Shown here one piece after another: positions 1-32,708 of a DNA stretch of 64,000 nt; position 1 is the stretch's first letter, and every line of letters begins with the position of its first letter. The notes beneath the pieces are model-generated. The model ran no database searches, was not told where the DNA came from, and saw only the letters and a program-made list of their open reading frames with translations. Origin of the DNA: Bacteroidales bacterium (lineage in GTDB: Bacteria > Bacteroidota > Bacteroidia > Bacteroidales > JAAYJT01); assembly GCA_014860575.1 (NCBI GenBank), contig JACZJK010000028.1:1-64000 (forward strand). The letters are read 5' to 3'. A program made the translations under genes and the position numbers.

Positions 1-327
1 CGGTAGGGGTATTTCGGGGGATTGTCAGCCTTGTAATGTTTGGGTTAGATGGGAAAGGCTTGGGGTTAGTATGTGCCTTGCGGAGGTCGGCAGCCTTTTA
101 TTAGCCTGGGTGGTTGTTCTGGGGGTGAGCTTTGGTTTGAGAAGTGTAGGGACATTAGGGACAGTAGGGTCTGTGGGGGTTGAGTGGAATGGGTTGTTAT
201 GGCTATGAAGGGTTGAGTTTGGTGACTTAAACCTTTGAAGAATGGAGGCAGGAAAGCTCAGTGGTTTGGGGAGTGGGTGGATAATGTGCAAATTATTCTA
301 TATTCCAAGCGGCAATGCAATGGCCGC
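1..327. other. Left-edge non-coding stretch
   Basis: No convincing gene is seen. The + strand is rich in G and T with short repeated words (gggtt, ggagt), a style shared with other intergenic stretches of this window. A minus-strand open frame here is proline/threonine-rich low complexity and is not believed. This stretch is downstream of the 328-867 gene, so it may hold its transcript end. Confidence 0.5.
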
Positions 328-329
328 TT
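307..329 (-). terminator. Hairpin overlapping the kinase stop codon
   Basis: A 7-bp perfect stem, AAGCGGC (307-313) and GCCGCTT (323-329), closes a 9-nt loop and overlaps the stop codon of the last gene of the minus-strand cluster. The T-run after it on the minus strand is poor, so it is only a possible terminator or mRNA 3' end structure. Confidence 0.35.
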
Positions 330-867
330 AGCGGAGTGCTGATCTTCCTTGCTTCATATATTTATAAATCAATTCAGATGTTTCTTTCGCTGTTAAATCT
401 GTCGTATCAATTTGTAACTCGTATTCGTGTTGGTATTTTTTAGTGTCAGAGTTTAGTTTTTTACAAATCTCAAAATCTTTAAACTTGTCGTCAGATCTTA
501 TATCTAAACGTTTTTGAATTTCATTTTCTGATGCATAAAGTCCGAAAATAGAAATTTTCCAATCTTTACCCACGCTAATCAATTGTTCATAATAAGCATG
601 AATTTTATCTCCGCTAAAAGTGTCAACTACAATGATTGGTTTAAGTTGTAATTCATAGAAGCTCGTTATCAATTGAATAGAAATATTTAAAATATCGACA
701 TGCTCTTTTTGGTTAGTCCAATCAACAGAAATCACCATCGAACGTAAGTTGTCAATTTCCATTCGAACTCCACGAGGAAAGTATTTAGCCAATTCCTTTG
801 CAGTTGTTGACTTTCCCGTAGCTGGAGCACCCTTGATGATAATAATATCCGAATCCCTATTTTGCAT
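328..867 (-). CDS. Small P-loop kinase-like NTPase
   Basis: This 179-residue protein opens with a strand and a Walker A loop, GAPATGKST (about residues 13-21), as in zeta-toxin, chloramphenicol-phosphotransferase and nucleoside-kinase-like AAA_33 enzymes. A hydrophobic strand ending in VVDTFSG (about 100) could supply the Walker B aspartate, and an RLDIRSDDK stretch (about 135) looks like a lid region with arginines. The start overlaps the stop of the radical SAM gene by one base (TAATG), which argues for translational coupling. It probably phosphorylates a small molecule or peptide made or handled by its two neighbours; the substrate cannot be told. A stand-alone resistance kinase is the main alternative. 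Confidence 0.75.
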   Translation of the reverse strand: MQNRDSDIIIIKGAPATGKSTTAKELAKYFPRGVRMEIDNLRSMVISVDWTNQKEHVDILNISIQLITSFYELQLKPIIVVDTFSGDKIHAYYEQLISVGKDWKISIFGLYASENEIQKRLDIRSDDKFKDFEICKKLNSDTKKYQHEYELQIDTTDLTAKETSELIYKYMKQGRSALR

Positions 868-1883
868 TAGTTATAGATAATTTCCGGAATATTACAAGCC
901 ATTTCTTTACATGGGAAATTACATGTTTTCATGAGTTTTGAAACCTCTGTTGAGCGTTTTTTACAAAGAATTTGAATTATATCTCCCTTTTCGATGTTTC
1001 CTAAAGGTTCTTTTGCTAAAGGTATTCTTCTATGGTCGAAACACTTTACCACATCTCCATTTGGGTAAATGATAATATTTTTCCTTGCTGCACAAGCAAC
1101 TTCATTAGAGGTAGTCTTTGGAGTGTTTGTCGGGTTATGCCACACTCCACCAAAATCAAGGTATGTTTGTGTAGTATGTAAAACACCTAGTTCTTTACAA
1201 AACCGTTGAATACTTTCAATTTCTGATTCTGATTCAGAAGCAATAACTGATTGAATTTGCAAATTCTTGCCTAAATAACTTTTTGATAACTTAATATTCT
1301 CCATTACTTTCTCAAATGTTGCCTTGCCTCTGAAATCAGTCCATTTGTTTTCATTAATTGTATCAATTGATATTACTAATTTATGCTTAAGCTCCGCGTA
1401 GCGTTTTAAGAAATCTGCAGTAATTAATACCCCATTCGTAAAAGTTAATAACAGAATGTCATGATTTCTAGATTCCTCTGCTATTTTCAAAACATCATCT
1501 GCAAAAAGTAATGGTTCTCCACCAGTTATTGTTACTTGATACAGATTTTCATTCAACATTTTTAGGCAGTTAATAAAAACAGAAATATCAATATGCTCAT
1601 TATCTGGTTCGGGTGTTTCCCAAATACCACATTTAGGACATCTTTCATTACAACGTTTTGTAATCATATAAATTAATTCATTACCCTTAATTCCATAAAA
1701 TCTACGAATCGGAGTTTTATACCATCTGTAGATACTCCATTCAATGGTTTTCATAATAATTAACGGAATGAAATAATACCATTTTCCAATTCTCTTAGCA
1801 AAAGGTTCGATTTCACCTAAATAATCACTTATTACATGGGTAATACTGGGTTGATTCGCTCTTCTTCTATAAATTAAGCTCAT
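867..1883 (-). CDS. Radical SAM protein with SPASM-like C-terminus
   Basis: This is a 338-residue radical SAM enzyme. The cluster motif CNERCPKCG (CX3CX2C) lies near residue 77, followed by an ITGGEPLL stretch that binds SAM. A cysteine-rich tail (VACAARK, VVKCFDH, KTCNFPCKEMAC) looks like a SPASM or twitch auxiliary cluster region. SPASM enzymes commonly modify ribosomal peptides or other macromolecules. An upstream in-frame Met at 1988 would overlap the glycosyltransferase by 122 bp, so I chose the Met at 1883, which leaves a 17-bp overlap. It sits between a GT2 gene and a kinase gene in a gap-free cluster. No precursor peptide was recognised, so a RiPP role is only one option; modification of a sugar or nucleoside is another. 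Confidence 0.85.
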   Translation of the reverse strand: MSLIYRRRANQPSITHVISDYLGEIEPFAKRIGKWYYFIPLIIMKTIEWSIYRWYKTPIRRFYGIKGNELIYMITKRCNERCPKCGIWETPEPDNEHIDISVFINCLKMLNENLYQVTITGGEPLLFADDVLKIAEESRNHDILLLTFTNGVLITADFLKRYAELKHKLVISIDTINENKWTDFRGKATFEKVMENIKLSKSYLGKNLQIQSVIASESESEIESIQRFCKELGVLHTTQTYLDFGGVWHNPTNTPKTTSNEVACAARKNIIIYPNGDVVKCFDHRRIPLAKEPLGNIEKGDIIQILCKKRSTEVSKLMKTCNFPCKEMACNIPEIIYN

Positions 1884-2631
1884 ATGCGTTTCCTGAATAA
1901 ATTGATTCTGAAGAGTCCCAAAGTAAAACCGTATGTCCTTCGTATAATGTGGCACTTGAACTCTTGTATTTTTTGAATAGATTGACAAAACGTCTAAAAC
2001 CTGTCAATGTGCTTTTATAGCCGAAGTCGTGCCATAACTTCGCTTTAGGACAAAATCCAATTTTATATTTACTTCTCATTCTTAAACAAAGGTCAACATC
2101 TTCACCTGCAGCCGTCGGAAAACGCTCGTCAAATGCAAAGTCTTCTGCTACAAATGATTTTATCCCAAAATTCAAAGAAGGCATATACCATAATTCCTTT
2201 TTATCAGGAAGCAACCACTTGCCATTTAATGTTCCATTAATATCATGGTAGTAATCATAAAGTGTTTTGCCATACGAAAAAGTCATTCCTCCAACGGCAG
2301 CAAATTCTGTTTTTTCAAGGAAGTCAGACATTTGCTCATTCCATTGAAAATCTAAAATGCAATCATGGTCGGTGAAAAAGATATGCTTTGCATTTTGAGA
2401 AAGGGCCTTGTCAATACCGACATTCCTTGCTTTTGCTGGTCCACCATTTTCAGTAAGTCTTATATGCTCAATAAAAGGGATATCCAACTTATACTCAAAT
2501 GGACTAAAATCATCAATCACTAGAACTTTCTCAAATTGAAGTGTTTGATTTTGAACACTCTCAAGTAATCTTGTTAGGCAATTAATATCCCATTTCGTTT
2601 TTATGTAACACGGTATTATTAAAAAATTCAT
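1867..2631 (-). CDS. Family 2 glycosyltransferase
   Basis: This 254-residue GT-A fold enzyme has the nucleotide-binding region VLVIDDFSP (about 36-44), an ENGGPAKARNVG segment (about 62-73), the DxD-like metal site TDHDC (about 87-91) and the late acidic motif GEDVDLCLR (about 176-184), where the catalytic base of GT2 enzymes sits. No membrane segment is seen, so it should be cytosolic. It is first in the three-gene minus-strand run and overlaps the radical SAM gene by 17 bp. The acceptor is unknown. The GT2 plus radical SAM pairing recalls glycosylated-RiPP loci, but that comparison is inference. Confidence 0.85.
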   Translation of the reverse strand: MNFLIIPCYIKTKWDINCLTRLLESVQNQTLQFEKVLVIDDFSPFEYKLDIPFIEHIRLTENGGPAKARNVGIDKALSQNAKHIFFTDHDCILDFQWNEQMSDFLEKTEFAAVGGMTFSYGKTLYDYYHDINGTLNGKWLLPDKKELWYMPSLNFGIKSFVAEDFAFDERFPTAAGEDVDLCLRMRSKYKIGFCPKAKLWHDFGYKSTLTGFRRFVNLFKKYKSSSATLYEGHTVLLWDSSESIYSGNAYELNL

Positions 2632-3116
2632 AAATACTGTCTAATCTGTTTATTTATTGCATTGTGGTTTTTTATACTTACACCCAACTAGTAAATATCT
2701 GTATAAAGTTGTCACTTTAAAATCTGGTACCGGTTGAGATTAGGCTGGGTGTATGTAAAGGGTCAGTAGTTTTCTGCAGCCGGTAATTAATAACTATTGT
2801 TCTCGCACTGTTGAAACGCAACACTAAGGAATGTTGCAGGTTCGCAGGATTTTATGTTCTGGCACTGTTTAAGCAAAAAAGGGAGTTGCATTTTGAACAT
2901 GCAACTATGTGCGCAAAATTATGGCTGGTTCTGAAGCCAGGCGAATTGTTTTCTTTGCGTTTTGTTAACAGCTGGATAATAGAATTAATATTATAGGAGC
3001 AAATATATAAAAATGGATGAGTAGTGCAGATATTTAGAAAAATATTTCAGTTTGGAAAGTTATTGTGGAGTCATATGATGGGGTGCATAGGTGAAATATG
3101 CTTTCTAAGCCTAAGC
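2632..3116. other. 485-bp non-coding gap with several hairpins
   Basis: No credible gene is seen. Visible structure: an imperfect 13-bp inverted repeat pairing 2676-2688 with 2744-2756 (11 of 13 bases), a short hairpin at about 2819-2838 (GCAACA / TGTTGC), a perfect 8-bp hairpin at 2884-2906, and a 5-bp TGGCT/AGCCA hairpin near 2921-2940. It separates the GT2 cluster from the DUF6508 gene and may hold the promoter of the former. Confidence 0.5.
2884..2906. repeat. Perfect 8-bp hairpin
   Basis: AGTTGCAT (2884-2891) and ATGCAACT (2899-2906) are exact reverse complements around a 7-nt loop. No T-run follows on either strand, so it is not a classical intrinsic terminator. Confidence 0.45.
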
Positions 3117-3551
3117 TTACATATCCAATTGTTGCTTAATAGATTTCAACATCTTCACCATAAACCCCGACTCAAATGCATTCATCAGCGCACCTTCACA
3201 AAACCTGTCGTTGCGGACGATGGCAGTGATGATCTTGCATTTGGTGGGAATGTCAATGGTGTTGAAATCGAAATCCGGATTTCTTGCCATTTCTCTTCCT
3301 TCATCCCATGCTGCCCAATTAAAATCAATGATGATGGGCATTTCATAAGCTATATCGAGGAAGCGGTCAATTAGCGGCACATTAAAGCATATAGGCAGGG
3401 TATATTCTTCTTCACCAATTTTTTCCGGCCCATGATATTCTCCGAATTCTTCCGTTTTTTCAATCTCGGGAATCAAATCCAGCAGTGGCTTCCAGTCCTC
3501 TTGTGTGAAGGCATTAATTCTTTCGATGTAGTTTTCCGAATTGAGAGTCAT
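3117..3551 (-). CDS. DUF6508 family protein
   Basis: This 144-residue soluble protein matches my memory of DUF6508: a WAAWDEGREM motif near residue 80 followed by the conserved tail segment ITAIVRNDRFCEGAL near 108-122. The function of the family is unknown. Its ATG overlaps the TGA of the preceding agmatine-deiminase-like gene (ATGA, 3548-3551), so the two are almost certainly co-translated. The C-terminal hydrophobic pattern (FMVKMLKSIKQQL) suggests a final helix. Confidence 0.75.
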   Translation of the reverse strand: MTLNSENYIERINAFTQEDWKPLLDLIPEIEKTEEFGEYHGPEKIGEEEYTLPICFNVPLIDRFLDIAYEMPIIIDFNWAAWDEGREMARNPDFDFNTIDIPTKCKIITAIVRNDRFCEGALMNAFESGFMVKMLKSIKQQLDM

Positions 3552-4396
3552 GATTGTTTGCTCTTTTTGATATTCCAGCTTATGCAGTTCATTAATCCAC
3601 CCTTCAGTCCAATTTCATTAATTTCTACAGGTTCGATAATCTTGTCAGGAAAGACTTTTTTGATTACATCAAGTGCAACCTGGTCCTTGTTTCCCGGAAT
3701 TTCAAAGACCGGAAACAATATCAGATTACCGACTTCAAGGTAATTCACATAGATGCCAATGGCTGACAGCGGTTCGCCTTTATACTTCTTATCAAACCAG
3801 GGCATTTCAACATACTTCAGCCCGGATTCCCTGATCATTCTCCTAAATCCGTCCTGCCAGTAAAGGTATTCATACTTTAACTCATTAACCAATAAGGTCT
3901 TGCTATCTATGAACCACACATGACCATCGGCATGGCCCGTTTCGTCGGAGCTAATAGCCGGTATTATTAGAACTTCGGCTTGCAATTGTTCTTCTAGCCT
4001 TTTGATGAGCTCATTCTTTTCAATATCAGGATTATCTTTAAAAATCCGGTTGGTCATGATCACTTTATCAGAACCACGAATTACATTCCCACCATCCAGG
4101 ATAATGTCCGAAAGTTCAGCTTCAATTTGGTTGGCCTGCAACACTTCAAATGGCCTTGTATGTTTCTCAGGTTCTTGATGGAGATAGGCCGCATCATAGC
4201 GGAACTGTACAAACCGGTTCACATCCGTTTGTACTGGCATGTAATCCCTACACCAGATATCCCTGGTTCCATCAAGTGTTTTGTAATCAATCTTGTGTTT
4301 ATCAAGAATAGATTTAATCCTCTTCCAGCAGTCCGGGTATTTTTCTTCAATAAGCCCCGAAAAGTAAACAAAATCAGTTTTTGCGTCGGTAATCAT
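3548..4396 (-). CDS. Agmatine deiminase / peptidylarginine deiminase-family enzyme
   Basis: This 282-residue protein belongs to the guanidino-group-modifying superfamily. Diagnostic pieces are TRDIWCRDYMP (about 44-54), LDGGN (about 100), the catalytic-His region ETGHADGHVW (about 152-161) and a near-C-terminal catalytic Cys in GGLMNCISW (about 269-274). Known members hydrolyse agmatine to N-carbamoylputrescine or deiminate arginine residues. The protein is shorter than typical agmatine deiminases (about 350 aa) and has no signal peptide, so the substrate is open. It is coupled to the DUF6508 gene by a 4-base overlap. Its position in a defence-rich island leaves room for a role other than polyamine synthesis. 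Confidence 0.8.
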   Translation of the reverse strand: MITDAKTDFVYFSGLIEEKYPDCWKRIKSILDKHKIDYKTLDGTRDIWCRDYMPVQTDVNRFVQFRYDAAYLHQEPEKHTRPFEVLQANQIEAELSDIILDGGNVIRGSDKVIMTNRIFKDNPDIEKNELIKRLEEQLQAEVLIIPAISSDETGHADGHVWFIDSKTLLVNELKYEYLYWQDGFRRMIRESGLKYVEMPWFDKKYKGEPLSAIGIYVNYLEVGNLILFPVFEIPGNKDQVALDVIKKVFPDKIIEPVEINEIGLKGGLMNCISWNIKKSKQS

Positions 4397-4504
4397 AATG
4401 CTGCGTTTTTGGTTAATGTGCAGCGAAGGTCAGGTGGATTTAAAGGGGGGTCAAATTTTTTAACACTTTTTAACTGGAATTACTAATGATTGTAATTCAG
4501 TATG

Positions 4505-5083
4505 TTAACTACTAACTTTCTGGCTTTTCAATCGTATACGTTCTTTTTCCGAATTATTAACATGTTTGTTATCCCAAGTTTCAAGGCTCGTATAATATCT
4601 GTATAAAGAATCTCTGAAATCATTTCCCGGATATTTAGAAAGGCCTTGCCTGAATGTCTTAAAGATTTTCACTTGTTCTTTTTTTACATTGGGAGTCAAA
4701 CCAAACTCCTGTTGCATATTTGTGACAGAATTCAGATTAATAAAAATTGCTGTCAAAACCCTTTTAGGGCCATTCACATTGTAGTTGTTGGATTTTAAGC
4801 CTCTGATTAATATGCCTCCATCACTATCATCTGTGGCAGGGAAGGTTATATCCAACCCTTGCAAATGAAAACGCCAGCGACCTTCAGGATAATTGTGTTC
4901 ATGTGTTGCATTGTCTTCATGAATCTGTTCTTTAAAGAAATAGAACTCAATTTCAGTAAAAGAAAAAAATTCATTGTTAACTTTTAATTGCCAATTGGTC
5001 ATTAGGTCAATGGCGATTCTATCAAAAGATTTCTGGATAGATTGAACACTATCAGAATTTAAATTTAAGTTTAGATGTTCCAT
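4505..5083 (-). CDS. Conserved-looking hypothetical protein
   Basis: This 192-residue protein is not recognised with confidence. It has a compact, natural composition with a central motif pair, YPEGRWRFHLQGLD (about 67-80) and DGGILIRGL (about 89-97), that resembles a beta-rich substrate pocket. The C-terminus is basic (KERIRLKSQKVSS). No signal peptide or membrane segment is seen. It stands alone, 108 bp upstream of the deiminase gene start and about 120 bp downstream of the 435-residue gene. A distant DNA-glycosylase-like fold came to mind from the GGILIR motif, but I cannot support it. Confidence 0.6.
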   Translation of the reverse strand: MEHLNLNLNSDSVQSIQKSFDRIAIDLMTNWQLKVNNEFFSFTEIEFYFFKEQIHEDNATHEHNYPEGRWRFHLQGLDITFPATDDSDGGILIRGLKSNNYNVNGPKRVLTAIFINLNSVTNMQQEFGLTPNVKKEQVKIFKTFRQGLSKYPGNDFRDSLYRYYTSLETWDNKHVNNSEKERIRLKSQKVSS

Positions 5084-5201
5084 GAGGATGAATTAATATT
5101 TAACTATAACGAGTGCGCAATAACTACTAAACTAGAGTTAAAAATATTTCTCTCATTATAACCCGAAGGAATTTTAAGGAGGTTTAAAATATGTGCGATG
5201 C

Positions 5202-6509
5202 TTAAATTTTGTTGAGGTTAATTCCTTTTCCAAAATCGGCTAAACTTGTTTTGTCTGCATCAGTGATCACACCTCTTGCAATGAGTTCATCGAGTAAGTC
5301 TTTGTTACTTAGGTCTTCAAATGTGATGTTACTGTATAACAGTTGTATGCTCATCTTACTGGCAAGTTCAAAAGCTTCGGGCCATCTGATGTTGTGAATA
5401 ATTTCATTAGCCTTATTTTCTGCAACTCTTTCGCGATAGGTTTTGTCTGATTTTAAGAATAAATCATTATCAGAAATCTGCTTTGGATTTTCAGTATAAA
5501 AGGTAATGAGCTCACTGAGTAGGTTGTTTTTGGTTTCTTGAATCATATCGTCGATTTTCTGAATAAGCGTGGCCGAAATTTTGACTATATCCTGCTCAAG
5601 TTCACGAATTTCTTTTTCAAAAGCCTCCTTTTTTTCAAGCTCTAACAAATTCTCTTCACGAATTTTTAAAGGCACAAGATAATACTCACGTAATATTTTG
5701 ATTTTTATTTTGATGTCCTCTAATTCCGGGAAGATTGCTTCTTCATCCCCTGGATTAAAAAGATTCAGTTTGGTTTCCAAGCGCTTGCGCAAAGCGGCAT
5801 CATTTAGTGGCAGGGCTTTTTTAGGTAGCTCAACTTTCTTTGCCTGGAGATTCGCCCCATGAAAGAAAAGTTTAACATACTGAAACTTTGTAGCATAATA
5901 TTCAACAATGCGCTTATAATCTGGCCTTAAGGGAGGATTTGCTTTCAGATCTGCACTAACAGTCTGAAACATATGTTCGTTAAGCTTATTTGTTGAGATG
6001 ATTCCGGGAGACTGAAATTCCTTTTCGACATCTTTAAAGCGAATGCTTTCGTCGATGATGGCATTGGAGAGAAGATCTTCTAAAGTGCTTTTTTCAAATG
6101 GCTTAAAAAAGTGATGTTTGAGCCTTACAATTGAAATTGGATCGATGCTGATGGCATTGATTGTTTCTTTTTCAGCTGGAATCAAATAACGGGATTCTAT
6201 GAAGAGGAAGTAGCCAATATCATCTGTAATAATAAAAGAAACCCTATTATCAATAATATTCTGGCAGTTGTAATTATTGAGGTTTGATTTTTCAAATGCC
6301 TCCATTTCTCCGTAACCCTGGCGGAATGTTTCGGGTGAAAAATCAAGGCCGATGTTGATGGAAACTTTTCCATTATGTTTGGCATACAAAGAATGAATGG
6401 CCGCCAACATCTCAGGATGAATGAGAGGCATTGTAAGGAAAAGTTCTTTTTTGGTTTGAAGAATAAGGTTACAGAGGGTTGCCTCGTTAAAGGATTTAAT
6501 ATAGCTCAT
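5202..6509 (-). CDS. Uncharacterised partner of the DUF262 protein, with degenerate PLD-like N-terminus
   Basis: This 435-residue protein has no family I can name. The N-terminal 130 residues have the alternating strand/helix rhythm of a phospholipase D-like domain (KELFLTMPLIHPEML, then a strand FIITDDIGYFLFI), but no HxK motif is present, so catalysis by that route is unlikely. Residues about 250-330 are strongly helical and charged, consistent with a coiled coil. Its ATG overlaps the stop of the DUF262 gene by 4 bases (6506-6509), so the pair is translationally coupled. It may be a sensor or regulator of the DUF262 nuclease; that is inference from position only. Confidence 0.7.
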   Translation of the reverse strand: MSYIKSFNEATLCNLILQTKKELFLTMPLIHPEMLAAIHSLYAKHNGKVSINIGLDFSPETFRQGYGEMEAFEKSNLNNYNCQNIIDNRVSFIITDDIGYFLFIESRYLIPAEKETINAISIDPISIVRLKHHFFKPFEKSTLEDLLSNAIIDESIRFKDVEKEFQSPGIISTNKLNEHMFQTVSADLKANPPLRPDYKRIVEYYATKFQYVKLFFHGANLQAKKVELPKKALPLNDAALRKRLETKLNLFNPGDEEAIFPELEDIKIKIKILREYYLVPLKIREENLLELEKKEAFEKEIRELEQDIVKISATLIQKIDDMIQETKNNLLSELITFYTENPKQISDNDLFLKSDKTYRERVAENKANEIIHNIRWPEAFELASKMSIQLLYSNITFEDLSNKDLLDELIARGVITDADKTSLADFGKGINLNKI

Positions 6510-8338
6510 ATCATCTCTTCATTATTGTTTATTTCATCTTCTGCATAATGGCCTTCTTCTTCTGTGGGAATGCCTCGTGGAATTGTTTTGCCCATGGCTT
6601 GCTCAATTTTCTGCAAAATTCTTTCTTTACGATCGTTATAAAAGCTGTAAAAATCGTCAGATTCCAGAAATTGAATGTTTAGGAGGTGAGATTCTACTAT
6701 CCCAGTAAAAGTTTCGTAATTCACACCGGCACGTTCCATTAAACGCTTCAGATATTTTGATGGAGCATCGCCACTTACAATCCGGTTTGTTCTTCCGGAA
6801 AGTGGTGTTTTATTGATTATGCTGTCAGAATCATTTCCTGGAATAGCGTTTTCAGGTTTCTGACACCATGCAACGGGGAAAATATGATGCACATCAATTG
6901 ATTCAGAAAAGTAAGTGCTCATGATTATTTGCGATGCAGAAAGCCAATCCTTTGCATTGTTGCTCAGAATTAATGCATAAACGCCTTTGTATGCTGCGCT
7001 ATTGCGGGTTCTCAGGGTTGAGAGCCTTGATGGAGAGAAGTTTGCTTCGAAAACTGTTTTCGGTTCTTCCCTATTATTGAGTATCCAGTCAATCGCTTGT
7101 ACAACGTCCAGAGCGTAGCGGGTTTCGTTTGCTCCACCATACAATTCGCCAAATACCCCGCACCAAAACCATTGCATCAGCTTTTGTTTGTAGCCTACAT
7201 TGTCAATATGCTCTTTGAGGTAAGCTAAAATGGATGACAGCGGAATTAACTGTGTAGTGTATGGAAGGTCGCGGGCACTGAAGATGTTGTTTTCGGTCAG
7301 AATTTTTGAAGCCTTAATAAATCCTGCTACTACGTCATCTCTGTGTTTCAAATAATCCTGAAGGCGAAGATTTAGCATCTCTTTACGTTTTGCACTTACT
7401 GCAGGCAAATTTTCTGTTTTACCCAAGGCAACTTGATCAAGTCTTCGTTGAAAAGTAGAATAGAGGGTTATCGCCTGAATCAGATCTGTATTGCGGGTTG
7501 ATTTTAGCAAAGGGAACCCATTGAGTTTCCCTTTGACTTTTGCCCAATCTTCTTTTAAATCGAATTCTTCCGAGGCAAAGGAAGCTGTTAAAAGTTCGAA
7601 AACCGTTAGTGAAACACCACCGGTATTTACTTTTTCAAACACTTGACATACAGCTTCCTTAGGATTTTCCTTTTTCATGAGAATAACCGGAAGCTGATAA
7701 CCTGTGAAGCCTTTTATAATTTTTCGTTCAAAGTCGTTCCAGAATTTGATTTTATCCCGGTCGTAATCCCAGTATTCGGAAAATTTCGTTCTCCAATCGT
7801 CATATTCGTCAACCATACAAACGGGATACATCAGGTTTTTAAATTCCTGTTCTTCGGTGGTAAGGTCAAGGATAATATCCCGGCCGATGTTTTCGGTAAT
7901 GATTTTTCTTTCGTTTATTGAGAAAATCGCTTCTTCCAGGTCTGTATCCGGGTCTAAGGCTTTTGCCATATCAATGTAATACCAGCGCTTGATTTCATAG
8001 TTCTTGGCATTTTTTGTAGTTACAACCTGGTTTGTGATGATGGCCTGATAAAGAGAGGTAATCCGTTGCTGACCATCCAGAATCAGCATTTCCGGCTTTA
8101 TGCCATTGTTTGGGGCCCCTTCTACGGGCTTGGTTTTGAAGCGTATGCTTTCGTTGCCGGTTTCCAGCAACATGATGGCGCCAATTGGAAAAGATTTGGC
8201 GACGCTGGCAATGATCCCTTTGATGCGATTATCATCCCACACCCATCCGCGCTGGAAATCGGGCAGTTGGATTTTCCCTTTGTGCACATCTTTCAGGATA
8301 TCGTAAAGGTTTGTTTTGGTGGAGTCGAAAGTTTCCAT
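6506..8338 (-). CDS. DUF262 protein with C-terminal HNH-type site (GmrSD-like)
   Basis: This 610-residue protein starts with a DUF262 (ParB-like NTPase) domain: QLPDFQRGWVWD (about 23-34) and the hallmark LDGQQRITSL (about 87-96). A C-terminal nuclease-like segment, SIDVHHIFPVAW (about 490), resembles the DUF1524/HNH core of the type IV modification-dependent enzyme GmrSD. In such proteins the first domain binds and hydrolyses nucleotides and the second cuts DNA carrying modified bases. It follows the 34-residue ORF by 21 bp and overlaps the next gene by 4 bp. The coupling to an unknown 435-residue partner is not part of the classical GmrSD system. DNA cleavage is a family expectation, not shown here. 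Confidence 0.85.
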   Translation of the reverse strand: METFDSTKTNLYDILKDVHKGKIQLPDFQRGWVWDDNRIKGIIASVAKSFPIGAIMLLETGNESIRFKTKPVEGAPNNGIKPEMLILDGQQRITSLYQAIITNQVVTTKNAKNYEIKRWYYIDMAKALDPDTDLEEAIFSINERKIITENIGRDIILDLTTEEQEFKNLMYPVCMVDEYDDWRTKFSEYWDYDRDKIKFWNDFERKIIKGFTGYQLPVILMKKENPKEAVCQVFEKVNTGGVSLTVFELLTASFASEEFDLKEDWAKVKGKLNGFPLLKSTRNTDLIQAITLYSTFQRRLDQVALGKTENLPAVSAKRKEMLNLRLQDYLKHRDDVVAGFIKASKILTENNIFSARDLPYTTQLIPLSSILAYLKEHIDNVGYKQKLMQWFWCGVFGELYGGANETRYALDVVQAIDWILNNREEPKTVFEANFSPSRLSTLRTRNSAAYKGVYALILSNNAKDWLSASQIIMSTYFSESIDVHHIFPVAWCQKPENAIPGNDSDSIINKTPLSGRTNRIVSGDAPSKYLKRLMERAGVNYETFTGIVESHLLNIQFLESDDFYSFYNDRKERILQKIEQAMGKTIPRGIPTEEEGHYAEDEINNNEEMI

Positions 8339-8359
8339 AGTTGTTTGAATATAAGTTGT

Positions 8360-8464
8360 TTAATGTGCATTGATTTTTTCAAATAATTTTGTAAACCGCT
8401 TCCTTTCATCACTCAACAGATGATATGCTGAGCATTCTGGAAGACTTGAATACTTATTTATCAT
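8360..8464 (-). CDS. 34-residue small ORF coupled to the HNH gene
   Basis: An ATG overlaps the TGA of the HNH gene (ATGA, 8461-8464) and opens a 34-codon frame ending in TAA 21 bp before the DUF262 gene. The peptide has a plausible soluble sequence, with a charged helix HLLSDERKRFTKLFEKI making up the C-terminal half. The 4-base overlap matches the style of other coupled pairs here, and the frame fills the gap between two defence-type genes almost exactly. It could be a small regulator or antitoxin-like part, a remnant of a longer gene, or chance. No family is recognised. Confidence 0.5.
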   Translation of the reverse strand: MINKYSSLPECSAYHLLSDERKRFTKLFEKINAH

Positions 8465-9477
8465 GGGATAATATGTTTGATCAATCCCGCTTGCTTTGCA
8501 ATATCCTGCATAAACTTCGCTAGCGGTCGTTTATTGATATCACTCACCTGTTTGTAATTGGCCAGGAGTAGCCATTCTATTTCGTCTTCGGAAGCAAATA
8601 GGCGTTCCCCATTATGTTCTAGATTCATTAAAGCCTCTTTGCCACCATTTCTATATGCATAAGCTTTCAAATAGATCTCCTTAACAATATCTATGTGGCG
8701 CTTATAAATGTTTTCTATTGCTGTGAACCTGTTTTGATTACGGACACGTGGTTCATCCGTATTAGACATACTGACATTTATCTCATTTATTGGTACTAAT
8801 GCTCCCTGAAGCAATCTGTTGTGAGCATCCTGATTAATCTCAAAGTGTGTCAAGGACTGAAAATCTTCATTGAAGGGATGTACAAGTTCATCCAATGTAA
8901 ATGTTTCTTTGCTTTTACTCTGATTGCATGAAGCGCAAGAGGGTGTTAAGTTGTACAATGAAATACTCAAATAAGGATACTTGTTCTTTGGGAAAAAATG
9001 ATCAAATTGAAACCTAGCCAGATTCTTGTTGGCATTATGTACAACCAGTGTGAATTGTGCGTTGCAATACAAGCATGTTTTGATGTTGAGGTAGTAGGCT
9101 AGTTTCACGAGCTTGTTGCTCCTTAATCTCTCATAGCTGAAAGCATCAAGAATTTTACTGCCGACAGAACTTAATCGGGCTCCTTCTCTTCGTGTAACGA
9201 TATCTTGCCAACCATTATCAAGAAACGTTTGAGTAATATGATATAAGCCTCGAGGTGGGGTTTTTATGATACTTTCAAAATTCTCAATTAAATAGTTAAG
9301 CAACTCCCTTTCCTTATCTGTTTCAAATACCGGATCTAATAATAATGCCTGAAGCCTAAATAATGGGGATTCGTAACGTCCGCGCACTACGAATAAATCA
9401 GTGTAATAAAGCTGTTCAATATCAGCCCACTGTCTTATTACACCATCCATGCCTTCAGATTCAAGAACTTGTTTCAT
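8461..9477 (-). CDS. ptuB: HNH endonuclease, Septu PtuB-like
   Basis: This 338-residue protein carries an HNH core with zinc-binding cysteines: CLYCNAQF (about 133-140), the RFQFDHFFPK histidine motif (about 155-164) and SCASCNQSKS (about 178-187). This is the arrangement of TIGR02646-like HNH proteins that pair with overcoming-lysogenisation/Septu-type AAA ATPases. It begins 5 bp after the ATPase stop codon, so the two form a PtuA-PtuB pair. In described Septu systems the ATPase-HNH complex protects against phage by nucleic-acid cleavage. No reverse transcriptase or retron RNA gene is nearby, so this is not a retron effector. The symbol is by analogy. Confidence 0.8.
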   Translation of the reverse strand: MKQVLESEGMDGVIRQWADIEQLYYTDLFVVRGRYESPLFRLQALLLDPVFETDKERELLNYLIENFESIIKTPPRGLYHITQTFLDNGWQDIVTRREGARLSSVGSKILDAFSYERLRSNKLVKLAYYLNIKTCLYCNAQFTLVVHNANKNLARFQFDHFFPKNKYPYLSISLYNLTPSCASCNQSKSKETFTLDELVHPFNEDFQSLTHFEINQDAHNRLLQGALVPINEINVSMSNTDEPRVRNQNRFTAIENIYKRHIDIVKEIYLKAYAYRNGGKEALMNLEHNGERLFASEDEIEWLLLANYKQVSDINKRPLAKFMQDIAKQAGLIKHIIP

Positions 9478-9482
9478 TTGTA

Positions 9483-11423
9483 CTAATTGTTTTGGCGTTT
9501 AAGCTTATCTAATTCATCCTGCAGGAATGCCCGGCGGCGGGCATTATCATCAAATGCAACTTTTGATAGCAGAAGTTCATAGAGCCTTTGCCTGATCATA
9601 GGCTCCCCTATTATTCCAATACGCAGTTTATAGTTTTCAACAGAAGCCACATCAGGATCGTTTAGTTGCTTAATTTCATTCATCAACTCAAATATTTTGA
9701 TTTTAGCAAACTCACCGATCAGACCTTGCTGTAGAAAAAATGCATCAGAAAATAAAGTATGGATATTTGCACCAAAGGTTTCTTGCATATCGAAATTATG
9801 AACATTGAAGATTGCTTCTTGAGTCTTCTTCAGGAAAATCAAATTACTTTTTGGGAGGTCCGACACAACAAAAGGAGAATGTGTTGCAATAAATAATTGA
9901 ATCTTGGTGTCCTGAAAGTAGGTGCCATCAGAGAATAAATAATTTAGAAACTCATTGAGGTAATAAATATATTTGCGTTGCCATTCCGGATGAAATCCAA
10001 TTTCGGCCTCATCAAGTAGTAAATAAACAGTTTCAAAAACCTTTTGCGTTTCATACTTGTATTGCTTAGATACAAGCTCTTTGGTATAGTAAAGGCGAGA
10101 AAAAAGGTCAAGAAATGCCTTTTCCCCGCTACTCAAATCTCTCCAGTCTATTTCTAAGAATCCATATTGGGTGTCAATTAAATCAAATGATTTCAAGTAT
10201 GCTTCATAATTTGTTATAATTTCGACAATGCGTGTTTCGTTGGACACAATTATAGAATAGTTGATTTCTTCTATGCCTACATCAACCTGGGAATCTATTA
10301 ATGAAAAAATTGTTTCGATGAGTGAAGTAACTGGCTGCTTATCAATAATTATTTGCGAATTAAAAAAATGCTTTACTGCATCGAAAATGTTAAGCATTTT
10401 CAGTTCTTCAATTTTCACCTTAGACCAGTTTCCATAATATTGACCATCATTAATGTTGTAAAAGAAGTTAGCTATCAGGGCATCAACGAACTTCAATTTG
10501 CATTTCAAGCGATTACCAACTTTAAGAGACTCATTTTCTTTTTTATTTCTTGCACGATTGATAATGCCATGAATTTTGGTGTACTCTATTCTGATAGTGT
10601 CGAAAAAATATTCAAATATTTCTATGTCATGGGGGGAAATGTCATTTGATTCTTTAATCCCAGAAGTTCTTACCTGCGCAAAGGATATAGTCATTCTTTC
10701 AGGTGTTCTAAAATCAATCTTGTCTAACAATCCCGATTTTACTAGTTTAAACTGCCTTAGTGTGTTTTTATGTTTATGGATAAAAAGAAAGTCCTTATCT
10801 GGTATTGAATCCCTCTCAAGTTCTACGTCATCGCTTATTATACAGTTCGTTGACAAATCAATATAACTTTTTGAATATGAATATGGATAGCCCTTTAAAT
10901 CGAAGATACCAGAATAATAAATCACCAGTGTTGGTGTAAGATTTTCAATTCTATCGATCTGAGGAGAAATTAGATCAGTATTATAAATCTTCAAAGTAGT
11001 AACACTAATTTCTGCAAAATCACAAATTACCTTCACTGACCATTCATTCGTGAAGCCTAAATAGTTGTTGTTGCCACTATCTCCATAATCATATAAAGTA
11101 TGGTATATTTCCAGGACATCTTTACTTTTAAAAACAGCTAAAAATTTATCACTGTAGCTTGTGTAGCCTGTTAATAAACGCTTAAGAAATTCAAAGAAAG
11201 AGGTCTTTCCTGTACCATTTTCGCCAATGATGCCAATAATATTTGAAATTCTTGGTGAAAAAAGTTGTAAGGAGTGTTGGTTTGGTTTAGTAATGTTTAA
11301 TTGTAATTCTCTTTGGTCATTGCTAAAGTTAGAAATCGAGAAGTGAAATTCTCCCCCAAACGAGACTTCTTTATGCTTACCCAATCGGGAGCAATCTTCA
11401 ATTAGTAAATAGAGCAGTTCCAT
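9483..11423 (-). CDS. ptuA: ABC/SMC-like AAA ATPase, Septu PtuA-like
   Basis: This 646-residue ATPase has Walker A GENGTGKT (residues 67-74), an ABC-type signature LSSGEKAFLDLF and a Walker B LLLDEAEIGFHPEW (near 465-478), then ATHSPFVVSDLP with the switch histidine. The layout is that of the OLD/PtuA group, with a long insertion between Walker A and the signature, and no TOPRIM domain. Its partner HNH gene starts 5 bp downstream. It is the first gene of a run that continues without gaps larger than 22 bp through four more genes. Upstream lies 135 bp with a short gene remnant. Promoter elements are not clear. Confidence 0.85.
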   Translation of the reverse strand: MELLYLLIEDCSRLGKHKEVSFGGEFHFSISNFSNDQRELQLNITKPNQHSLQLFSPRISNIIGIIGENGTGKTSFFEFLKRLLTGYTSYSDKFLAVFKSKDVLEIYHTLYDYGDSGNNNYLGFTNEWSVKVICDFAEISVTTLKIYNTDLISPQIDRIENLTPTLVIYYSGIFDLKGYPYSYSKSYIDLSTNCIISDDVELERDSIPDKDFLFIHKHKNTLRQFKLVKSGLLDKIDFRTPERMTISFAQVRTSGIKESNDISPHDIEIFEYFFDTIRIEYTKIHGIINRARNKKENESLKVGNRLKCKLKFVDALIANFFYNINDGQYYGNWSKVKIEELKMLNIFDAVKHFFNSQIIIDKQPVTSLIETIFSLIDSQVDVGIEEINYSIIVSNETRIVEIITNYEAYLKSFDLIDTQYGFLEIDWRDLSSGEKAFLDLFSRLYYTKELVSKQYKYETQKVFETVYLLLDEAEIGFHPEWQRKYIYYLNEFLNYLFSDGTYFQDTKIQLFIATHSPFVVSDLPKSNLIFLKKTQEAIFNVHNFDMQETFGANIHTLFSDAFFLQQGLIGEFAKIKIFELMNEIKQLNDPDVASVENYKLRIGIIGEPMIRQRLYELLLSKVAFDDNARRRAFLQDELDKLKRQNN

Positions 11424-11441
11424 AATCTGTTATTTTACTGA

Positions 11442-11504
11442 CTAATCAAATCCCAATAAATTCATCAACCTCCTAGATGTTTCACTTGCCGCAATGTCGT
11501 ATTT
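11442..11504 (-). pseudogene. Short C-terminal gene remnant
   Basis: Just upstream of the Septu-like ATPase a 20-codon minus-strand frame, bounded by stops, reads like a protein C-terminus: it contains YDIAASETSRRLMNLLGFD followed by TAG. The amphipathic helix-like sequence is unlike random intergenic translation. It may be the tail of a gene lost when the defence cassette was inserted. No family assigned. Confidence 0.3.
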
Positions 11505-11558
11505 TTAAAAGTCTTCCATTTCCAATGGCTTTCCAAAAAACGCGATCGAACAGAAAAC

Positions 11559-13037
11559 CTATAATGTTTTGCCTTCATCCAACAACTTTAAAAACACTAA
11601 ACCCTTTTGTGTTATCCTGTACTTCTGTTTTGAGCTTTTGGCTTCAGGTTCAGTCCATTCGACTAACTGATCGGTTTGTAGCCTGGACAATATTTTCTTT
11701 AGTTGCCCTGATATTGATTTTTGCCCAAGCGCTTCTGAAAGTTCTTTTGTTGATGAGGTTTTCTCTTTTACCAGTCTTAATATCTGTCCATACAGCGACT
11801 CGTGCTGTAACTCGTGCTGTAACTCGTGCTGCAGCTCCTGCTGTAACTCCTGCTGTAACTCCTGCTCCTGCAGGTAATTTTTCTTTAAGAATATAACCCG
11901 GAAAGCCAATCCGGGCTCTTTCCATTGAAACTCTATTTCAGGATACTGCTGCAATTCTTCTGCTATCAGTTTTAGCCCATTGCCCCATTGCTCTATAATA
12001 CCAAGCCGTTTGAATACCGGCGCCAGTATCTTATTTCTGATATCAGACTGCCCGGCCAACATCTCATTGAAATCAACTGTTGGGGGCAGTGTTCCGGGAC
12101 TGGTAATCTCAATCTTGTCGTTAAAAATGGCAATTTTAATATCCTTTCCGGAGAGAGAATAATCCCGGTGGATCACTGCATTACGAATTACTTCACGAAT
12201 TGCAATTACCGGATATTCCCAGCGGTCATTCCTGTAAACACCCGAATAGTCGGTGGAGCCTTCTGAAATATGGCGCAGCACGAACTGATAGGCTTGCTCT
12301 GGCTGCAAAGCAAGGTTCACATTGATGGTTTTCTGATCAATGAAATTCCCGGGAGTAATTCCCTTAAACCTTGCACATTCAATTTTTGCAAACGGGAAAA
12401 GCTGTTGCCTTAGCTCATCATCCGATAACATCAACATGGCGATGGTTGGAAGATGCTTATTTTGTTCGGAGCGGAAAAGTTCCAGTTTCTTTAAAACCTG
12501 ACGCGTAAGTTCTTCGCCCGTTTTCTCAAGGAATAGCTCTTTAAACGATTCAATATTGACTTTATCAATGGTTTTGGTAAAAATCAGTTCACTGTCGAAT
12601 GAAATGCTTTGTTTTTGCCTTTTCAGCTCTGCAATGATTTCACTGGAAGCCAATCTGTTGCTTGAACCCACCCGAATATATGTACCTTCTTCAAACTTCG
12701 CATTCTTAAGGTGATATGGAGGGGCGCTTCCTTTAAAAATTACAACCTTCACAATGAATTTCTCATCCTGTCTCAAAAATGAAATCTCAGGAAGAATAAC
12801 CGGCTCGCATAGGTCATGAATAATATTGCTGATCCTTTCTTCAGTTTTGATTAGCATATCCTCTTCAATGCCAATTACCTGACGGGGATTATCCTGAATG
12901 CCAATGTAAATTGCACCGCCGGCGTCATTTGCAAATGAAATAACCGTTTTAGCAATATCTACTCCCGAAGCTATTTCTTTTTTAAACTCAAGTTTGCGGC
13001 CTTCAGGCTGCTGAAGTATTTGGCTGATTTTAGACAT
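11559..13037 (-). CDS. AlbA_2 / HATPase_c-type regulator-like protein with Gln-Glu-Leu repeat
   Basis: This 492-residue protein begins with an AlbA_2 (divergent AAA_4, Schlafen-like) domain: GRKLEFKKEI (about 13-22) and FANDAGGAIYIGIQD (about 34-48). A central HATPase_c_4 segment follows, with IRNAVIHRDYS (about 283-293), ITSPGTLP and EQWGNGLKLI (about 347-356). The C-terminal 90 residues look like a winged helix (KELSEALGQKS) preceded by a stretch of ELQQ/ELQH repeats (about 390-414) encoded by 12-bp tandem repeats. Such proteins are often annotated as transcriptional regulators or RecG-like and are frequent in defence islands; their activity is poorly known. It lies alone between AbiH and the Septu-like pair. 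Confidence 0.8.
   Translation of the reverse strand: MSKISQILQQPEGRKLEFKKEIASGVDIAKTVISFANDAGGAIYIGIQDNPRQVIGIEEDMLIKTEERISNIIHDLCEPVILPEISFLRQDEKFIVKVVIFKGSAPPYHLKNAKFEEGTYIRVGSSNRLASSEIIAELKRQKQSISFDSELIFTKTIDKVNIESFKELFLEKTGEELTRQVLKKLELFRSEQNKHLPTIAMLMLSDDELRQQLFPFAKIECARFKGITPGNFIDQKTINVNLALQPEQAYQFVLRHISEGSTDYSGVYRNDRWEYPVIAIREVIRNAVIHRDYSLSGKDIKIAIFNDKIEITSPGTLPPTVDFNEMLAGQSDIRNKILAPVFKRLGIIEQWGNGLKLIAEELQQYPEIEFQWKEPGLAFRVIFLKKNYLQEQELQQELQQELQHELQHELQHESLYGQILRLVKEKTSSTKELSEALGQKSISGQLKKILSRLQTDQLVEWTEPEAKSSKQKYRITQKGLVFLKLLDEGKTL
11799..11870. repeat. 12-bp coding tandem repeat, about six units
   Basis: Six consecutive 12-bp units with register starts at 11799, 11811, 11823, 11835, 11847 and 11859 follow the pattern CTCSTGCTGYAR with few changes. 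On the minus strand they encode ELQH then ELQQ units between the HATPase and winged-helix parts. The length is a multiple of three, so copy change would keep the frame. The same DNA keeps two other frames open, which produces spurious Arg/Ala/Val/Thr-rich ORFs. Confidence 0.9.
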
Positions 13038-13057
13038 AATGCTTTAAAATAGTTTAT

Positions 13058-13255
13058 TTACTGCTTAAACAAATCCCCATATCCTCCATCTGCTTCATTA
13101 ACATTGGTTTTGGGTTTCTTGTATTCTTTCCCTTTCCAAAACCATTTGCTCACCTCCTCGGAGATGGCTGTTCCTTTCTGTTCCTAAAACTTCCTTACGG
13201 TTTCTTCTTTGTGTTTGCCTTCGCGGGCTTCCTGCTCAAAGAGTTGATGGTTTAC
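13058..13255 (-). pseudogene. Decayed gene 3' end downstream of AbiH
   Basis: Minus-strand translation directly after the AbiH stop, in the same frame, gives a protein-like charged sequence (LFEQEAREGKHKEETV) with one internal TAG, then EEVSKWFWKGKEYKKP and a hydrophilic end before TAA at 13058-13060. It looks like the C-terminal part of a gene broken by at least one stop. Whether it was once a separate gene or a longer tail of AbiH cannot be told. Confidence 0.4.
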
Positions 13256-14323
13256 TTACGTCAAAGGGCTGCACTTTTCAAAAGGCACAATCTTTTTTCT
13301 CATCATAGCTTTATTTTCCGGTTTGAAATGCCTGGATATTTCCTGAGTTTTTTCAAAGTAATCATTACTGCCATCTTTACGATCATGGTAGTAGATTTTA
13401 ATGTTTGAGCATTTATCGTGTTCAAATATGCTGTTTAGCAGAACCCTGTCAGATAGACCGCATGAATGACCCATGATGTAAATAACAAAAGGATCGGCTT
13501 CAACAAAGCGCATAAGTTGCAGATAATTAGTAGTTTTTAAATAGTGGAACGACTTAATGTGATCTAGAAAACTATTGATATTCAGATTTTCAAGTTTCGG
13601 GTAGTATGGATCCATTTCATCCCCATAACCAAAAATTACAGGATTAATCTCAGAATTGATCAATCCGTGTATGTTTACTACATTCGTCCTAGAATTGCTC
13701 ATGTCGAGATCGTGGGCGTACAAATCTAGCGTATTTGTGTAATTGAAATTCAGAAGTAGGGTATAAGGCGGATTTACAAGTTTGTTTTTGTTGCGTTCTG
13801 GTTTAATAATGCCTTTTAAAGTCTTGGAAATAAAAGGATTTCTTTTATTCTCATCAATTGTTAGAGTTGACAGATATTGTTCAAGTAAACTGATGATCGC
13901 ACTAAAGCATCTGTTAAGGCTTTTTGCTGAAGCTTTAGCATCTATATCATACTTGGAGAAGTTTCTTTCATAATCACGATAAATTGAGACCAGGTGACTA
14001 TAATAAAAGTATTCAATATCAACCCAATAACCATTTCGCATGTCTTTTAATAGGCCGTCGACGAATTCTGATTTGGGATAAATATTGATATTGCGATTCT
14101 TAAAGCTTTCAAAGGCGTTACTAATGGAATTAAACGGTTGATCGCCCGTAAGAAAATAGTTTCTTGGAAAGCTTTTCACAGCACAAATGTCATCTTCATA
14201 TTCAAGGTTATTGATTAACCATTTTCTGGTTTTATTTAAATACCAAAGCATGAAATCCGCATAGCTTGTTTTAAGCTCGTGCGCCAGATCGAAGCCATTG
14301 CCAATTATAATTAGATTATTCAT
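13256..14323 (-). CDS. abiH: AbiH-family abortive infection protein
   Basis: This 355-residue protein starts with the AbiH signature NLIIIGNGFDLAHELKTSY (residues 3-21), a glycine-rich nucleotide-binding-like loop followed by the conserved helix. A late YIMGHSCGLSDRVLL stretch (about 280-294) also fits the family. AbiH was first described from a lactococcal phage-resistance plasmid; its mechanism is not settled. Here it follows a DUF4760 membrane protein by 45 bp and precedes a decayed gene tail. No signal peptide; cytosolic. Confidence 0.88.
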   Translation of the reverse strand: MNNLIIIGNGFDLAHELKTSYADFMLWYLNKTRKWLINNLEYEDDICAVKSFPRNYFLTGDQPFNSISNAFESFKNRNINIYPKSEFVDGLLKDMRNGYWVDIEYFYYSHLVSIYRDYERNFSKYDIDAKASAKSLNRCFSAIISLLEQYLSTLTIDENKRNPFISKTLKGIIKPERNKNKLVNPPYTLLLNFNYTNTLDLYAHDLDMSNSRTNVVNIHGLINSEINPVIFGYGDEMDPYYPKLENLNINSFLDHIKSFHYLKTTNYLQLMRFVEADPFVIYIMGHSCGLSDRVLLNSIFEHDKCSNIKIYYHDRKDGSNDYFEKTQEISRHFKPENKAMMRKKIVPFEKCSPLT

Positions 14324-14368
14324 GAAAATGTGTTGTGCTTATTAATCACGATTTGAAATTCATAAATT

Positions 14369-14914
14369 CTACTCCATTACAGGCAATTCATCCTTTTTTG
14401 GTGGATTGCTGACCATTAAATTAAACTCAAGCACCAGGTTTTGAAATTCTGTATAGGCAGTTTCATTAACATGTATCTGCACATATTTGATATAGGGCTC
14501 AAATTTTTCATAGATCTTTTTAAGTTGCTTGCCTGACATTCTGTAGAGAATTTCCTTGTCAAAAACATCGGTGTGAATTCCTACCGATATGTGCTCCAAT
14601 AAACCTAATAATAATCTAACTTTTTTGAGAATTTCAGGGTTTTTAATAATGACATTAACAATATTCGCTTTTTCGCCTGCTGCCTGTATTAGAATGTCAA
14701 GATCATTTCTTGTATCATGCCATTGAGGCCGGACTTTAGCAAGGTAGTCAAAAGTTGCCTGCTTTCTGCGACGAGAATGATCAGCATTTAATGATCTTCG
14801 TAAATAATAGACCTGGCTAATTAGAATAAGCAGGGTAATGAATCCCACCAAAAGTGTAAAGAATTCGAAAATGGAAAGTCCTAGAACCAAATTAAGGATA
14901 ATTAATTTTTCCAT
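14369..14914 (-). CDS. DUF4760-like membrane-anchored protein
   Basis: This 181-residue protein has one N-terminal membrane segment (about residues 5-38, ending in QVYYLRRSL), then a helical cytosolic part with RRRKQATFDYLAKVRPQWHD (about 48-67) and a helix pair resembling DUF4760. Proteins of this type often sit beside phage-defence or unknown accessory genes. It is 45 bp upstream of AbiH on the same strand and 102 bp downstream of the ROCO GTPase. A role as a membrane-located partner of AbiH is possible but not supported beyond position. Confidence 0.65.
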   Translation of the reverse strand: MEKLIILNLVLGLSIFEFFTLLVGFITLLILISQVYYLRRSLNADHSRRRKQATFDYLAKVRPQWHDTRNDLDILIQAAGEKANIVNVIIKNPEILKKVRLLLGLLEHISVGIHTDVFDKEILYRMSGKQLKKIYEKFEPYIKYVQIHVNETAYTEFQNLVLEFNLMVSNPPKKDELPVME

Positions 14915-15016
14915 GATTGATAAGATTAGGTTTCAAACTACTTTAGTATGAATCTATTGCGATATGAATGTGTTTACAGTTTAATAAGATTAGAAATTTA
15001 GTGATTGCTTACATTT

Positions 15017-32510: not shown

Positions 32511-32530
32511 GGCTGTAAGGTTTTTGTAAA

Positions 32531-32571
32531 GGTACAACAATAATGAATAGGTATAACAATAGGTACAACAA
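32531..32571. repeat. Three GGTAYAACAA direct repeats upstream of the integrase
   Basis: Copies at 32531-32540, 32550-32559 and 32562-32571 differ at one base. They overlap a TACCTTTA sequence on the minus strand that resembles a -7 box, so they could be operators or integrase arm-type sites. Confidence 0.5.
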
Positions 32572-32708
32572 ATGTTACTTTTCACTGCTTTTTAATGCTT
32601 TTGGCTGCGATGGTTGATTTTATAAAAAACTGTATATCAGATATATAATGATAATGTGAGGTAATGGAGTGAAGGGGGTATAGTACTAGTCGGACAACAA
32701 AAATTAAC

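Follow-up and report, generated by a model that had tools for sequence, protein, structure and literature searches.

A mobile glycosyltransferase–radical SAM–kinase gene triad in bacteria and archaea and its possible role in phage defence

The window considered here, a stretch of 64,000 nucleotides at the start of contig JACZJK010000028.1 of a Bacteroidales bacterium (NCBI GenBank assembly GCA_014860575.1), opens with three overlapping genes on the minus strand, hereafter the triad. In order of transcription, they encode a family 2 glycosyltransferase (GT2; 1867–2631, 254 amino acids), a radical S-adenosylmethionine (SAM) enzyme with a SPASM-like C-terminus (867–1883, 338 amino acids from an ATG), and a P-loop small-molecule kinase with the fold of chloramphenicol phosphotransferase (CPT) and gluconate kinase (328–867, 179 amino acids). 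The first two genes overlap by 17 bases (1867–1883) and the last two by one base. The mechanically called frame of the radical SAM gene extends to a TTG at 1988; the start conserved in the radical SAM alignment is the ATG at 1883, and the 17-base overlap follows from the relatives beginning at the equivalent ATG. A gap of 485 bp (2632–3116) lies upstream of the GT2 gene, and 327 bases separate the kinase gene from the contig end at which the window begins. These coordinates and overlaps confirm those of an earlier note made from the sequence alone, and it is nearly certain that the three genes constitute one mobile functional unit.

The triad proteins and their known relatives

The glycosyltransferase matches Glycos_transf_2 (PF00535) at 60.4 bits, against a cut-off of 23.3, and its residues DHD (88–90), the DxD motif, and GEDVD (176–180) are invariant in an alignment of 30 rows; a PDB sequence search with this protein returned nothing at E ≤ 0.001. 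The second protein belongs to the radical SAM superfamily, with a Radical_SAM (PF04055) score of 65.5 bits (cut-off 29.5) and a CxxxCxxC motif (C78/C82/C85) that is invariant in 31 aligned rows, together with the C-terminal cysteines C264, C281, C321, C325 and C330; its SPASM (PF13186) match of 21.3 bits falls just below the cut-off of 21.5. Both Pfam matches of the kinase are marginal (AAA_33, 27.1 bits, cut-off 27; CPT, 22.8 bits, cut-off 22), and within its motifs GxPxxGK, ExDxxR and DTFS the residues G13/P15/G18/K19, E37/D39/R42 and D82–S85 are invariant in 30 rows. With these reservations for SPASM and the kinase, the enzyme assignments of the earlier note (GT2, cysteine-rich radical SAM, small kinase) hold in the libraries searched.

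The AlphaFold2 model of the kinase, with a mean predicted local distance difference test score (pLDDT) of 91.5, finds its best structural match in chloramphenicol phosphotransferase (1qhs; Z 18.4, root-mean-square deviation (rmsd) 2.2, 161 aligned residues), followed by 2bdt (Z 17.0), which is also the best match by PDB sequence search, 1zp6 (16.8), gluconate kinase (15.9) and the tunicamycin-resistance protein 2vli (15.8). Fold and marginal Pfam score together place it in a CPT-like class, although identity to chloramphenicol phosphotransferase in the structural alignment is 16% and the triad kinase, unlike that enzyme, is encoded with a GT2 and a radical SAM enzyme. The radical SAM model (mean pLDDT 77.3) is weak at the N-terminus and includes an extra helical stretch at about residues 14–52, mildly hydrophobic at about 25–45. 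Its structural matches comprise SuiB (Z 21.5, rmsd 4.7), SkfB (19.6), viperin-like enzymes (up to 19.5), BlsE (18.6), PqqE (18.6), MoaA (18.4) and DesII (17.4), and its PDB sequence matches are confined to the core.

Like the triad, prokaryotic viperins (pVip) combine a radical SAM enzyme with a kinase and occur near defence genes; the PADLOC models of pVip match the radical SAM core (1.8e-15), and viperin structures are among the top matches of the model. The profile match is, however, limited to residues 72–200 of 338, and the triad has a GT2 in addition and a radical SAM enzyme with a SPASM-like, cysteine-rich C-terminus. Its CPT/gluconate-kinase-like kinase also differs from the viperin-associated kinase VakA, the match (E 2.3e-4) covering P-loop residues 9–29 only. 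Membership among the viperins was rejected, given 49.4 bits for NCBIfam NF038283 against a cut-off of 180, the lack of any full-length match, and a kinase that is not of the VakA type. PADLOC-DB 2.0.0 holds no specific model for the triad proteins, giving generic radical SAM-core and P-loop matches and none for GT2.

In blasticidin S biosynthesis, the glycosyltransferase BlsD is the partner of BlsE. This pair resembles the triad in that glycosylation precedes a radical SAM step on a nucleoside sugar, although the triad is a three-gene cassette lacking further pathway genes and is likened to the pair by structure, not by sequence. No published description of the triad was found in the full-text literature searched, which covered few subscription papers and no bioRxiv preprints, and the view that no known pathway consists of exactly these three enzymes stands for the libraries and papers searched. 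Prokaryotic viperins and a Vibrio integron defence set are reviewed in PMC12926258, and in the accessible part of that review the triad is not among them.

Distribution and joint transfer

The triad occurs in the same order and orientation at 33 loci in 32 genomes, i.e., the window, L030 and 31 loci recovered by scanning genome contigs with the radical SAM alignment (best-segment identity 55–89%; L031 and L032 duplicate L053 and L055, and each pair was counted once). Identity in the radical SAM protein is 54–89%. Chance adjacency, which according to the earlier note would have followed from a lack of conservation elsewhere, is thereby refuted. The radical SAM gene is present at all 33 loci, GT2 at 32 and the kinase at 30, and all four absences fall at contig edges (GT2 in L056; kinase in L039, L041 and L064). 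Carriers include Bacteroidota, a Chlorobiota bin, Verrucomicrobiota, Planctomycetota, a Deltaproteobacteria bin, candidate division LCP-89, Anaeromyxobacter oryzae (Myxococcota), Magnetospirillum molischianum (Pseudomonadota) and Methanoperedens-type archaea, with two copies in archaeon LFW-24; most hosts are metagenome bins, so individual taxon labels may be wrong. No orthologue was found in 59 relatives of the same order, 48 of which gave partial radical SAM-core matches only, at no more than 39% identity. Three of 394 other genomes of the class hold an orthologue (58–60% identity), each within a GT2–radical SAM–kinase triad, and a GT2 profile search of 394 genomes of the phylum revealed no additional carrier. 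The window triad is 61–65% identical to the Methanoperedens-type loci, and this high identity, combined with the patchy taxonomic distribution, points to horizontal transfer.

The GT2 and radical SAM genes overlap at all 30 intact junctions, by exactly 17 bases at 18 of them, and the radical SAM and kinase genes overlap at 26 of 29 junctions, abut at one, and lie 14 and 46 bases apart at the other two (L043, L056 and L061 are omitted from the first count and L062 from the second). In the pairs computed, the ratio of nonsynonymous to synonymous substitution rates (dN/dS) is 0.03–0.24 for GT2, 0.05–0.23 for the radical SAM gene and 0.13–0.26 for the kinase, indicating purifying selection on all three. 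The universal overlap of GT2 and radical SAM genes, together with low dN/dS, makes the adjacency more than chance. The three protein trees, quick ones with several weak branches, are broadly alike, and archaeal rows are nested among bacterial ones; broken or cut rows were left out of alignments and trees (radical SAM, L062 and L064; GT2, L043 and L061). At the level of sequence, these data demonstrate that the three genes have spread together, from phylum to phylum and from one domain to the other. A viral origin was rejected, since neither radical SAM nor GT2 queries found a relative in viral_contigs and the plasmid and phage tblastn matches were distant and restricted to the radical SAM core, covering 39–56% of the query.

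The borders of the transferred unit can be read from the DNA. Pairwise homology between recent copies ends near the triad borders in L045/L046 (9181–11555), L048/L055 (9189–11538), L054/L052 (160–2445) and L060/L065 (8859–11723). Repeats of about 133 bp, all in gene orientation, lie at the 3' ends of gene units in L048, L054 and L055, and their alignment folds as a hairpin of 25 pairs, 15 of which keep pairing through changes on both sides. An attC-like covariance model, built from nine repeats of these three loci, finds further sites at L055 13067 (46.5 bits), L048 6795 (39.3) and L048 11526 (32.0), and yields one hit (E 0.58) in 13 control stretches. Site L048 11526 coincides precisely with the end of the homologous part of the L048 kinase, and the triad of this locus thus lies between sites 9064–9196 and 11526–11649. 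The three Bacteroidota loci L048, L054 and L055 each have an attC-like site where the kinase gene ends, and there the triad is, as far as sequence features define one, an integron-like cassette. In L054 it is followed by a type I restriction-modification (RM) system, itself ended by another attC-like site. Because three natural copies end in such sites, the limits of the smallest functional unit are already known.

In the window, where the contig stops 327 bases beyond the kinase gene, the model trained on these three loci detects no attC-like site at E ≤ 1, and it likewise detects none at the other loci. The same genome carries 10 attC-like sites on other contigs (C8, C19, C39, C43, C51 and C54; best E 3e-32) and an IntI-like tyrosine recombinase (L090; C36 2496–3236). 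The curated integron-integrase cut-off was passed in none of 14 genomes, and a loose search was positive in all 14 control genomes as well. Two IntI-like recombinases from genomes with attC-like arrays (L091 210–1358 and L094 1240–2319) score 181–206 bits against a cut-off of 265; their profile match is broken mid-way, with an extra N-terminal stretch, and the best PDB match of the L094 protein is IntI4. In G796, the distance between one such recombinase and an attC-like site is 2.4 kb.

Integron-borne defence cassettes were reportedly described by Darracq et al. in 2025, a study cited in PMC12409362. The triads of L048, L054 and L055 resemble such cassettes in being flanked by or ending in attC-like sites, and in L054 also through the neighbouring type I RM cassette; they differ in that the model detects no site at the remaining loci, the window included, and in that the local recombinases are IntI-like yet below the integrase cut-off. 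According to PMC9668308, integrons are known in Bacteroidota and archaea, and there is evidence that cassettes have moved across domains. Antiphage systems within chromosomal integrons are cited in PMC12409362.

Other flanking repeats are of less certain meaning. The triads of L060 (8859–11723, Deltaproteobacteria bin) and L065 (8858–11732, Planctomycetota bin) are 94.5% identical in DNA, which reflects either recent transfer or mis-binning, and the short palindromic repeats downstream of them may be attC-like, but they were not taken to mark the edge of a cassette. L058 contains four copies (2315, 6015, 7877 and 11546) of a 65-bp direct repeat that includes a short hairpin, one of them just past the triad. 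The flanking repeats of L058 and L063 were not convincing as cassette borders and were not counted either.

Defence-gene neighbourhood and possible function

In the window, the triad opens a low-GC defence island of about 25 kb (GC 0.36–0.39 across the first 16 kb versus 0.41–0.46 beyond), the defence genes of which lie upstream on the same minus strand. They encode a GmrSD-type (DUF262/HEC-05) candidate defence protein (6506–8338), a Septu-like pair (8461–11423) made up of PDC-M62B (8461–9477; PADLOC E 1.4e-60) and PDC-M62A (9483–11423; E 1.4e-89), a Schlafen/AlbA_2 protein (11559–13037), an AbiH-like protein (13256–14323), a type IIG restriction-methylase (17691–21464; PADLOC E 1.3e-131) and an SNF2-type defence helicase (21490–24819; PADLOC E 4.5e-46). 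Between triad and defence genes, a DUF6508 gene overlaps a peptidyl-arginine-deiminase-like gene (3117–4396). Beyond the island, a frame of 426 amino acids (31305–32585) weakly matches tyrosine recombinases in its C-terminal part only and may mark a mobile element; no Rfam match was found in positions 1–16000, and no tRNA in the window scan. These results go beyond the earlier note: the triad is horizontally mobile, is an integron-like cassette in some hosts, and is located in a defence island.

Location among defence genes is repeated elsewhere. AbiEi adjoins the triad at L045 and L064; LmuB (Lamassu) and restriction-like genes lie upstream of it at L030; type I RM systems are nearby at L054 and L065, and type III restriction with PDC-S11 at L060; the neighbours at L063 include a pAgo-associated-type SIR2, a helicase resembling GajB, and HEC-05, and that at L058 is an AriA/HEC-01A-type ATPase. 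When proteins within 5 kb of the triad at 13 loci were compared with those of arbitrary stretches of the same 13 genomes, 113 near-triad proteins matched 112 PADLOC families (E ≤ 1e-15) and 113 control proteins matched 21, the former count being inflated because one type I RM protein matches dozens of redundant restriction models. A further 81 near-triad proteins match 120 families; in all, 194 of 195 listed neighbour proteins and 113 of 166 listed control proteins were scanned.

No fourth gene travels with the triad. When open reading frames (ORFs) of at least 30 amino acids were clustered from the window and from 32 further loci, each spanning at most about 21 kb, the general families were the three triad proteins and overlapping frames only, with no conserved transporter, regulator, tailoring, polymerase, flippase or export gene. 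Among ORFs of at least 15 amino acids within 900 bp on either side, no cross-lineage group emerged beyond composition-driven, spurious or close-relative matches. The earlier note had recognised no precursor gene in the upstream gap. Of the products that it envisaged, a modified peptide, nucleoside or sugar, the peptide is weakened because distant lineages share neither a precursor nor any other small ORF close to the triad; a nucleoside or a sugar may still be made.

We tentatively favour, at somewhat less than even chances, the reading that the triad is a complete, horizontally mobile module, most likely directed against phages or other mobile elements and acting through a small molecule. GT2 would attach a sugar to a metabolite common to bacteria and archaea, such as a nucleotide, a nucleoside, a nucleotide sugar or a lipid carrier; a shared substrate is the simplest assumption, as GT2 and the radical SAM enzyme are highly similar despite very different envelopes. 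The radical SAM enzyme would then perform radical chemistry on the glycoside, and the CPT-like kinase would phosphorylate a hydroxyl of the product; this order is a guess taken from the order of the genes. Phosphorylation might either activate the product as an antiviral analogue, by a logic like that of viperin plus kinase, or keep it harmless to the host. With an antibiotic-inactivating enzyme as the best match of its fold, the kinase may either activate or detoxify; nearness to an antibiotic-phosphorylating enzyme was counted in favour of a defence role. Few anti-phage systems are known to work by small-molecule synthesis. If the triad is one of them, this compact, self-contained three-enzyme cassette, present in archaea and in many phyla of bacteria, would imply an antiviral metabolite and a type of radical SAM chemistry that are both new. 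The further step, namely that the triad represents a new class of chemical immunity of Bacteria and Archaea, in which the three enzymes would convert universal metabolites into an antiviral of a sugar or nucleotide type not known before and would be spread as one cassette via integron-like arrays and defence islands, is doubtful at present.

Several points weigh against a defence role. Twenty individually scored neighbours were picked by eye, and seven of them had no match at E ≤ 1e-8; the PADLOC comparison counts families, not proteins, and the control set has matches too. At several loci, the Methanoperedens-type L038 and L039 among them, most genes beside the triad are not defence genes, and accessory islands carry non-defence cargo as well. 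Only two isolate genomes carry the triad, each with one broken gene: a frameshift in GT2 in Anaeromyxobacter oryzae (L043, about 9259–10014) and an in-frame stop in the radical SAM gene in Magnetospirillum molischianum (L062, 2350–3370). Furthermore, the modelled radical SAM structure cannot tell peptide from nucleotide or sugar substrates, because it matches maturases of RiPPs (ribosomally synthesized and post-translationally modified peptides) with high scores, and viperins, BlsE and DesII as well.

Some of these features would also be expected of mobile accessory biosynthesis without a defence role, in which the triad would make an antibiotic, a cofactor-like compound or an osmolyte, the kinase would confer self-protection, and islands would simply collect accessory genes. 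The nearness of the kinase to chloramphenicol phosphotransferase and the tunicamycin-resistance protein, that of the radical SAM structure to BlsE and DesII, and the cargo of many kinds in attC-like arrays suit this explanation, but a biosynthetic pathway with no conserved transporter, regulator or extra tailoring gene, and with defence genes recurring beside it in unrelated genomes, seems unlikely.

Lower still is the probability that the triad modifies a surface or lipid-linked glycan, blocking phage adsorption or altering the envelope, with GT2 glycosylating an acceptor, the radical SAM enzyme modifying the sugar and the kinase phosphorylating it. GT2 enzymes often use lipid-linked acceptors, the N-terminal helix of the radical SAM enzyme is mildly hydrophobic, and NAD-dependent epimerase-like genes, assigned by sequence reading, adjoin the triad in L042, L047 and L057. 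On the other hand, GT2 and the radical SAM enzyme are highly conserved across archaea and bacterial phyla whose envelopes share few acceptors, and no polymerase, flippase or export gene is conserved with them. RiPP-like modification of a peptide or protein encoded elsewhere is very improbable, for although the radical SAM enzyme has a SPASM-type fold and a SPASM-like C-terminus and approaches SuiB, SkfB and StsB by structure or profile, its 59 bits against the StsB cut-off of 625 leave it, as with every NCBIfam maturase cut-off shown, far below the mark, its fixed partners are GT2 and a kinase, and no small ORF is conserved, which also leaves a RiPP with a neighbouring precursor unsupported.

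A related gene arrangement

A related arrangement, system B (radical SAM–radical SAM–GT2), is present at L033 6734–9476 and L034 7222–9937, with identities to the triad of 31–32% for radical SAM and 38–39% for GT2; comparison with the triad kinase found no kinase in it. Two caspase-like genes, read from their starts and not by family search, adjoin it in L033. Among 395 genomes of the phylum sample, the system-B GT2 finds a single match at E ≤ 1e-40, which is the window's own GT2. Anaeromyxobacter oryzae has a second GT2 (5553824), beside which neither a triad nor a system-B radical SAM gene appears among the ORFs listed, a filtered list that did not give this GT2 itself as a strong match. In L042 (279–3036), a system-B radical SAM gene is reduced to its N-terminal half, which leads directly into a complete triad; from its sequence, the arrangement looks like the replacement or invasion of one system by the other.

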